Source: Prevotella sp.
Lineage (GTDB): Bacteria; Bacteroidota; Bacteroidia; Bacteroidales; Bacteroidaceae
Reading direction: 5' to 3'
Assembly: GCA_015060485.1 (NCBI GenBank)
Contig: SUYI01000002.1
Coordinates: 124,001 to 188,000 of the forward strand
Length of the DNA: 64,000 nucleotides
The position numbers and the translations under genes were made by a program. Below, piece after piece: positions 59,905 through 62,900 of the stretch (position 1 is the first letter of the stretch; each line of letters opens with the position of its first letter). Under the pieces are notes generated by a model. The model was not told the origin of the DNA, searched no databases, and saw only the letters and a program-made list of their open reading frames with translations.

Positions 59905-62900
59905 GAAGCGCCTTGTTTATTTCTCATTTCTCATTTTTCATTTCTCATTTAGTGTCAGTGCGGCTGACACTACAAAGCCCTGGACCTTCTGGTACTGGAT
60001 GTATGGCGCTGTATCAGAACAAGGTATCAAAGCCGACCTCAAGGCCATGAAGGATGTGGGATTGGGCGGCTGCTATTTGATGCCTATTCGTGGCGCTGCT
60101 GAGCGGCCTGAATACGAAGGAAAGGCTGATGCGCTGAGCGAGAACTTCTGGCGGATGGTAGACGTGGCGCTCATGCAAGCCGATTCTCTTGGCTTGGGAA
60201 TGGGCATTCACGTCTGTGACGGGTTTGCACTCGCTGGAGGGCCTTGGATATCGCCAGACGAGTCTATGCAGAAGGTGGTCTTCTGCGATACCGTTGTCAG
60301 CGGAGGTCATCATCTTTTCCAGATGCCGAAGCCCCAGCATTACGAAAACTACTATGAGGATATTGCCGCCTATGCCATTCCAATTAGTAATCATAAACAT
60401 CAAACATCAAAATTCAAACTTCAAACTTCCCCTGTGGTTACGGTGAACGAAAAGGGTGTTTATTGTGCCGACGAGCCCTGCTGGATTCAGTATGAGTTTG
60501 ACGAACCTACGGAGATTCGCTATGTCGAGATAGAGCCTTCGGGTACGAATATCCAGTGTCAGCGGATGACGGTCAAGGTGTCGCCCGACGGGGTCATTTT
60601 TTATACCGTCAAACAATTGATGCCCCCTCGTCAGGGTTGGCAGAACACGGGGTGTCATACGACGTTCAGTATTCCCCCGTGCCAGGTGAAATACGTCCGA
60701 CTGGAGTGGACGCCAGCAGGTTCGGAACCAGGTGCTGAGGATTTGGATGCCGCCAAGTGGAAACCTGTGTTGAGGCTGAAAGGAGTTAAGTTTGGCAGTT
60801 GGCCGGTAATCGACAATTGGGAGGGCAAGGCAGGCTATGTGTGGCGCATTGCCCCAGAGACGCCCGAGGTCGACCTGCCTATGGAGGAGTTCTTGCATCC
60901 TCACGATGTGGTGGCTTTCAAGATGCAGGGCGACTACGTGGACGTGGCGCTGCCCGAGGGTATGTGGCGCTTTCTGCGTATGGGGCACACGTCGACGGGT
61001 CATACGAATGCGACGGCTGGTGGTGCCAAGGGCTTGGAGTGCGACAAATTCTCGCGGAAAGCGGTAGAGAAACAGGTGGACCGTTGGTTCGGGCTTTTCA
61101 TGAATCGTCCTAACCACAAGGCCATCCAGTATCTGCACGTCGACTCGTGGGAGTGTGGTTCGCAGAACTGGAGCAAGAACTTTGCTCAGGAGTTTGAGTG
61201 CCGTCGTGGTTACGACATCATTCCCTTGTTGCCCCTCTATGCCGGCGTGCCGATGGCGGGAGGCGAAGAGGCGTTGCGCGATATTCGCAGGACCATCGAC
61301 GAACTGGTGAACGAAGTCTTTTTTGTCACGGTGGCGCAGAAGGCCAGGGAGTATGGTGTGCAGCTGTCGTCAGAGAGCGTTGCACCCACGATGGTGTCCG
61401 ATGGAATGGCGCATTATCGCTATGTGGACGTACCGATGGGCGAGTTCTGGCTCAATTCACCCACCCATGATAAGCCCAACGATATGCTCGACGCTATCAG
61501 TGGTGCACACGTCTATGGCAAGAATATCGTGCAGGCTGAAGGTTTTACAGAAGTGCGAGGCGTATGGGACGAGACGCCGGCGAGCATCAAGGCACTCCTC
61601 GACAGGAACTTTGCCTTGGGCATGAACCGCCTCTTCTTCCACGTGAACACCCATAACCCTTGGCTCGACCGCAAACCAGGTATGACGCTCGATGGAATCG
61701 GACTTTTCTTCCAGCGCGACCAGACGTGGTTCGCTGAGGCCAAGCCGTTCGTCGATTATATCACGCGTTGTCAGACGCTGCTGCAAAAGGGCAGGCCTGT
61801 GGTGGATATTGCTGTGTATACGGGAGAAGAGATTCCCTCACGTGCCTTAACGCCTGATAAGCTGGTACCGATGTTGCCTGGATTGTTTGGGGCAGAGCGT
61901 GTGGCGTCAGAACAAAAGCGCCTCGCCAATGTGGGACAGCCCATGGAGGAGTCGCCCGTGGGTGTGCGCCACTCTGCCAATATCTTCGACCTGAAGGACT
62001 GGATCAATCCTCTGCACGGCTATCAGTACGACTCGATGAACAAGGATGCCCTGCTGACGCAGCCCTTTAACTATAAGGTGCTGGTCATCCCTCAGGGTAC
62101 GTTGGTGTCTAAAGAGGCCAAAGCAAAGATTGCCCAATTGCGTCGACAAGGCGTGCAGGTGATCGACAAGCCCTACAAAGATTCCGTTTTCGAGAAGGTG
62201 GCTCCAGATGTCGTCCTACCTGATGGCATTGCCTATGCCCACCGTACCGGCGATGGTTTCGACATCTACTTCCTTTCGAACCAAACAGACCGGGCGCTGA
62301 CGTTCTCGCCTGCTTTCCGTCAGCACAATGGCGAAGCGGTGGTGTATCATCCGCTAACGGATGAGAGCTATGCCTTTGACGGCACCGTCTCGTTGCCGCC
62401 CTACGGCTCCGTCTTTATCACCTATGGGCTCTCTGAATATTCCCACGCTGGGAATAAAACATTCCCACACTGGGAACAAAATATTCCCACGCTGGGAATA
62501 AAAAACGGGCCTTGGGACATCTTTTTCAAGGAAAGCGGTATTTCTCTTTCGAACCAGCAGCTCTTCGACTGGAGCCAGCATGCTGACGAACGGATTCGCT
62601 ACTTCAGCGGACATGCCCGCTATACAACGACGTGGAAACTGAAGAAGGACGAGGTGCCTCAGGGGCGGGCGTGGCTCTCGTTCCCTAACGTGAAGGATAT
62701 TGCCCACGTGTGGATTAACGGCAAGGACTGCGGCATTGCCTGGACGGCTCCCTACAAGGTGGAGATCACAGGCGCCCTGAAGAAAGGCAAGAACACGGTA
62801 GAAATAGAGGTGGTGAACACGTGGCACAACGCCCTGCGAGGTGCTGACAACGGCAAAGCGCCCTACGAGGGCATTTGGACGAACGCCAAATATCGCACGA

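Follow-up and report, generated by a model that had tools for sequence, protein, structure and literature searches.

A heptamer array in a Prevotella GH106 alpha-L-rhamnosidase gene as a probable copy of a dispersed, genus-restricted, coding-compatible repeat family

Two enzymes encoded in a 64,000-nucleotide stretch of Prevotella sp. DNA (the window; contig SUYI01000002.1, positions 124,001 to 188,000) contain strikingly similar peptides, each encoded by a tandem array of heptanucleotides, and the question is how both genes came to hold the same short segment. The earlier note on this DNA had read the likeness as convergence at the peptide level, driven by a shared DNA repeat and a shared phase. 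In the present study, the first array was located by direct reading of the sequence at 60395-60429, directly after TAATCAT at 60388-60394 (window genes, arrays, tags and the hairpin described below are given on the plus strand). Its units are, in order, AAACATC-AAACATC-AAAATTC-AAACTTC-AAACTTC, and TRF called it with period 7 and 5.0 copies. The earlier listing as five units of AAACATC or AAACTTC is right for four of them; the middle unit is AAAATTC. The array is read in frame as SNHKHQTSKFKLQTS (peptide KHQTSKFKLQTS) in an open reading frame of 1020 amino acids at 59903-62965. Pfam places the product in GH106 (E 5e-121), and its alignment with the solved GH106 enzyme 5mqm runs from end to end. 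The position previously given was exact, and the host is a complete and genuine GH106 gene of the alpha-L-rhamnosidase type. The array occupies a variable loop at residues about 162-176, between predicted strands at 151-161 and 187-189; the AlphaFold model, which is mediocre (mean pLDDT 66) and served only for loop placement, falls below pLDDT 50 at residues 166-168. The same gene also has a second heptamer array with the unit ATTTCTC at 59919-59950, which contributes YFSFLIFHFSF to the predicted signal peptide, and a third repeat at 62439-62503, in which a 22-bp palindromic unit (ATTCCCACNCTGGGAATAAAAC) is present three times, so that all three frames are used in turn (HAGNKTF/PHWEQNI/PTLGIKN). 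Five relatives have 65-bp stretches resembling this last repeat at unrelated places.

The look-alike insert in the GH78 alpha-L-rhamnosidase gene (12196-14616, complete) is equally real. This partner copy at 13197-13238 consists of TAATCAT, four units of AAACCTC and one of AAACATC; the array proper (13204-13238) encodes TNHKPQTSNLKPQTS, and the insertion makes the protein a net 15 or so residues longer than its orthologs. At this position the nearest GH78 enzyme with a solved structure shows a clean gap. Both arrays belong to a class that we write as TTTGANN when seen from the opposite strand, so that the coding strand is the TCA strand, and TAATCAT is the ATGATT-type end-tag of this class as it appears on the coding strand (the minus strand reads TTTATGATTA). 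We consider, with a probability of about 0.7, that a dispersed, genus-restricted and coding-compatible family of heptamer arrays includes the GH106 array as one of its copies.

The likeness of the peptides follows from a simple rule of frame and strand. Because 7 and 3 are coprime, a heptamer array yields one cyclic heptapeptide per strand in all three frames; for AAACCTC it is K-P-Q-T-S-N-L, and the opposite strand, with its TGA, runs into a stop codon within three units whatever the frame. Since TGA falls in every frame of that strand, only the TCA strand of a TTTGANN array is readable in genes, and therefore coding copies share a cyclic (N-x-K-x-Q-T-S)-type peptide whatever the phase. The GH106 array is a member of the TTTGANN class, bears its end-tag and obeys this rule. 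In a scan of 1.22 Mb, sampled as stretches of the 3.94-Mb, 88-contig host Prevotella genome, coding arrays showed TCA in the sense strand in 61 cases vs TGA in 17, and all 21 TTTGANN coding arrays gave a peptide of this NLKPQTS-like type, with all three phases represented. AATCATAAACATCAAAC is also present in a third gene of the same genome, the sequence of which looks like that of an aminotransferase; the phase there is different, yet the peptide is still INIKQQTSNFKL. Three unrelated genes of this genome have AATCATAAACNTCAAAC in common. A shared phase as cause was rejected on these grounds; it is neither required nor true. In a protein search of the kind proposed earlier, the pattern [NS]xKxQ[TIS]S was found in 13 of 821 predicted proteins against 1.0 after shuffling, with SNHKxQTS or TNHKxQTS solely in the two window genes.

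The fact that both hosts belong to alpha-L-rhamnosidase families raises the idea that SNHKHQTS/TNHKPQTS was itself selected, as a functional motif or as a domain shared by rhamnosidases. We regard this as extremely improbable, because orthologs of both enzymes lack the peptide or have unrelated residues in its place, the same peptide type is present in the aminotransferase and in other proteins, and no Pfam family spans either the GH106 or the GH78 insert. A conserved domain common to the two enzyme families was rejected on the same evidence. The absence of a Pfam domain, the orthologs without an insert and the clean gap in the solved GH78 enzyme instead bear out the part of the earlier reading in which the shared DNA repeat drives the likeness. 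What the earlier note called convergence is better described as one repeat family arriving twice, independently, as the TAATCAT end-tag common to both suggests.

The GH106 array is no local oddity, and tandem repeats of 7 nt are above chance both in the window and beyond it. With up to two mismatches, AAACWTCAAACWTC matched 9 times in the window vs 1.6 expected, a number attained by none of 100 shuffles, and exact lag-7 runs of at least 9 occurred 9 times against 0.2 in Markov shuffles. In 440 kb of the host genome, exact lag-7 runs of at least 10 nt numbered 55 vs 1.0 in local second-order shuffles; runs of the same size numbered 45 at lag 14 and 39 at lag 21, with fewer than 10 at every other lag. 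In the 1.22 Mb, a tolerant scan counted 188 arrays with a lag of 7, against 24 with a lag of 6 and 43 with a lag of 8. Of the heptamer units, 75% contain TGA or the complementary TCA, vs 24% of random genomic 7-mers. About half of the arrays are inside genes: 96 of the 188 period-7 arrays are within coding sequence and the remainder between genes or at gene ends, these location classes being approximate as the gene calls come from a home-made codon model. Within the window, a TGA-sense array at 57868-57901 in a neighbouring gene uses the stop-avoiding unit AAAGGAG and reads NEKGEMSNEKW, and a TGAAGAG-class array with the end-tag TTTGCTTCCGC (55439-55479; tag 55469-55479) lies between two genes, with an identical copy at the same site in the relative G074. 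TGA-sense arrays often start at stop codons or occupy stop-to-start spacers.

Several related observations were made along the way. Stop-to-start spacers of co-directional genes consist almost entirely of heptamer array at L195 17108-17139, L213 9090-9142 and L204 18794-18825. At L008 13750-13893 and 17697-17828, arrays of one unit flank a start codon in opposite senses, one array in the leader and the other in the signal peptide, and the two could pair in the mRNA. The window also contains a perfect intergenic 23-bp tandem repeat (CACAAACAACCGAACAAAATCAT, 3.6 copies) at 48498-48580, and a 22-bp repeat with a palindromic core (GGACTCGCAGTCC, 3.4 copies) inside an open reading frame at 31173-31247.

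One account of such arrays is pure replication slippage, in which a 7-nt step favoured by the polymerase makes repeats grow independently from chance seeds and slippery sequences recur. The exclusive periods of 7, 14 and 21 and the variable copy number fit it, and it is a published idea for heptanucleotides, which in many bacteria are more common than any other long simple repeat (PMC4679880, PMC4692102). Against slippage stand class-specific, non-repeat tags that terminate arrays on one side only, as read on the TGA strand. ATGATT adjoins 8 of 44 TTTGANN arrays and none on the opposite side (background 0.5% per window, P 5e-11), a rate of 18% that refers to an unbiased set, loci fetched through the tag inflating it. 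TTTGCT.CCGC adjoins 16 of 39 TGAAGA-type arrays, again with none on the opposite side (P 4e-54); the end-tag of this sister class is TTTGCTNCCGC. Among genomes of the genus, AATCATAAACNTCAAAC was present in 10 of 200, with none for the reversed control and 1 of 200 for a scrambled tag, and TGAAGARTTTGCTNCCGC in 45 of 120, with up to 50 copies each and zero in controls.

Orthologous sites bear on the same question, and they show a turnover of arrays within Prevotella. Among GH106 orthologs, the window gene and L047 alone hold an AAAC-TC array in the loop of 13-16 residues after AIP; elsewhere this loop holds AGAGGTG arrays (L027, L029, L039), AATAGCC (L070), CAATTC-type (CAATTCC; L055) or CAATGG-type (L065) arrays, G/C palindromes (L024, L025) or plain sequence. 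In GH78 orthologs the corresponding loop is mostly 2-4 residues, the window gene being about 15 residues longer, and in L135, the closest sister, the identical point is occupied by an AGAGGTG array. No AAACCTC seed was found at the empty GH78 sites, a further point against growth from chance seeds, as is the recurrence of AATCATAAACNTCAAAC in three unrelated genes of one genome. At the site of the 57868 array, most orthologs have 12-19 nt and others have G/C palindromes such as CCCCTCC..GGAGGGG. In L083, L094, L043, L058 and L064, the palindromes at this site are coding and start GCGCAGCCGCT(C)CCC..GGGGAGGGG; they are a second in-frame repeat family occupying the same loops.

The sister class adds a more elaborate form. 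Arrays with the TTTGCTNCCGC tag build complete hairpins of array, tag, loop, inverted tag and inverted array, which were found in 28 of 150 genomes of the genus and, across the order, in 1 of 198, namely the own genome only. Matched arms of this kind also speak against slippage. The window contains one complete example at 24598-24695, composed of a heptamer-like arm, TTTGCTACCGC, a 22-nt loop, GCGGTAGCAAA and a complementary arm. It lies between convergent open reading frames, its RNA fold has -49.4 kcal/mol (z -11.9), and it could act as a bidirectional terminator. TTTGANN arrays as arms of short-loop hairpins were rejected, with 3 of 200 genomes vs 4 in the reversed control. Among 48 distinct hairpins, 17 are within open frames having at least 60 codons on each side. 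The loop length is 1 modulo 3 in 16 of these 17, each of which reads SEELRVKSEEFATA-loop-AVANSSLFTLHSSL or a variant; the remaining one, L294, differs in loop phase, and its open frame may be due to chance. Outside open reading frames this phase was seen in 14 of 31, and the P of 7e-4 is partly built in because only that phase leaves both arms open. In-frame reading therefore applies to at least 16 of the 48. Ten scanned hairpin-host proteins match Pfam families, and the hosts include an ABC transporter, RsmF, MenC, a hybrid histidine kinase, SufB/D, beta-galactosidase (LacZ), patatin and an OmpA-family protein. At L291 1000-2523, a single rRNA methyltransferase gene (RsmF) has two separate in-frame hairpin elements.

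The stability of the 24598-24695 hairpin between its convergent neighbours, the frequent placement of TGA-sense arrays at stop codons or throughout stop-to-start spacers, and the same-unit arrays in opposite sense around start codons would suit another explanation, namely that the repeats are selected DNA or RNA sites (for example for a protein that binds at 7-bp intervals, as terminators, or as mRNA hairpins around start codons) and that coding copies are tolerated spill-over. We consider this very unlikely, given that half of the arrays are intragenic, their distribution over the genus is patchy, most orthologous sites lack an array, and many different units are in use. Pure slippage is also unlikely, though less so. 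The low tag rate of the TTTGANN class keeps it alive, and so does the sharing of k-mers: irregular 21-mers were shared between loci in 41 pairs vs a mean of 20 in a unit-permuted null, which remains inside the null range (maximum 47), so this result alone cannot tell copying from slippage. Against the dispersed-family reading, in addition, only 18% of TTTGANN arrays are tagged and the units form a continuum and not a fixed element.

What nevertheless favours copying is the presence of tags, the lack of a seed at the empty GH78 sites and the match between hairpin arms. In the dispersed family that we propose, TTTGANN members would be (TTTGANN)n, often terminated by TTTATGATTA; they would spread as existing elements are copied and inserted elsewhere, and slippage would change the copy number later. 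Copies would reach many sites and persist in unconstrained DNA such as stop-to-start spacers, signal peptides and surface loops, and the GH106 and GH78 loops would have been struck independently by this one family. No target-site duplication was recognised by eye, and at the outer ends of the hairpins the array length varies. As to the copying agent, Y1_Tnp was present in 9 of 10 element-rich vs 6 of 10 element-poor genomes and RVT_1 in 6 of 10 vs 5 of 10; neither a Y1 transposase nor a reverse transcriptase separates rich from poor genomes. It is possible, although we would put it somewhat below even odds, that tagged solo arrays and array-armed hairpins together form an undescribed superfamily of selfish coding-compatible elements, copied between loci and repeatedly placing in-frame segments of 10-45 residues in conserved enzymes, with classes competing for the same loops across species.

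Among known systems, the closest in behaviour are the Rickettsia palindromic elements (RPE), short repeats which are found in frame in unrelated conserved genes, giving the same peptide each time, and also between genes (PMC10969869, PMC3733652). Both the TTTGANN class and the sister class are likewise in frame in unrelated conserved genes with one conserved peptide, and the TTTGCTNCCGC class is in addition palindromic, with at least 16 of 48 elements in frame. The arms in Prevotella, however, consist of heptamers in tandem and carry a tag specific to their class, and since neither the GH106 array nor its class is palindromic, the array was not filed as an RPE. Heptanucleotide long simple repeats have been described with the units TAACTGA (MacGregor 2015, PMC4679880) and GGGAATC or GGGGA(C/T)T (Rehm 2015, PMC4692102), and polymerase slippage has been proposed for such repeats (PMC4679880, PMC4692102). 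They resemble our arrays in their tandem 7-nt units, many sites per genome and lineage restriction, and TAACTGA also contains TGA; inverted pairs have been noted in Xanthomonas. In the described cases each genome has a single unit, mostly between genes, whereas the Prevotella arrays have many units, half of them in genes, with end-tags and in-frame hairpins. REP/BIME sequences and RAYT share with the hairpins the form of small dispersed palindromes; the hairpins differ in having no fixed GTAG/CGTC at the stem foot, GTAG being only inside the stem and lost in GCGGCAGC variants, in having arrays as arms and in being often intragenic, and Y1 transposase did not separate element-rich from element-poor genomes. 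PINSR, a 188-bp high-copy repeat of Prevotella intermedia/nigrescens (PMC4755523), is also restricted to a Prevotella lineage; identity with it was rejected by its description as intergenic, without inverted repeats and without heptamer arrays. Inverted repeats embedded in coding sequence are reported for nematomorph mitochondrial genes (PMC6649704), from an unrelated organism, in which no heptamer arrays or dispersed tag are known.

In the open-access literature searched we found no description of heptamer or palindromic elements of this kind in Prevotella. Simple heptamer repeats and in-frame palindromes are already known; what appears to be new is that arms made of heptamers, tags specific to a class and insertion in frame occur together. 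Protein segments gained in frame from repeats are known mainly from Rickettsia, and here they are met in an abundant rumen genus. With genomes of many Prevotella species, and with the same genes offering both empty and filled sites, the entry of selfish DNA, the tolerance of loops and the copying agent can be put to a direct test. Our results are also a warning that look-alike peptides of unrelated Prevotella proteins (NLKPQTS, FLISHFSF, SEELRVKSEEFATA) are footprints of DNA and not domains.
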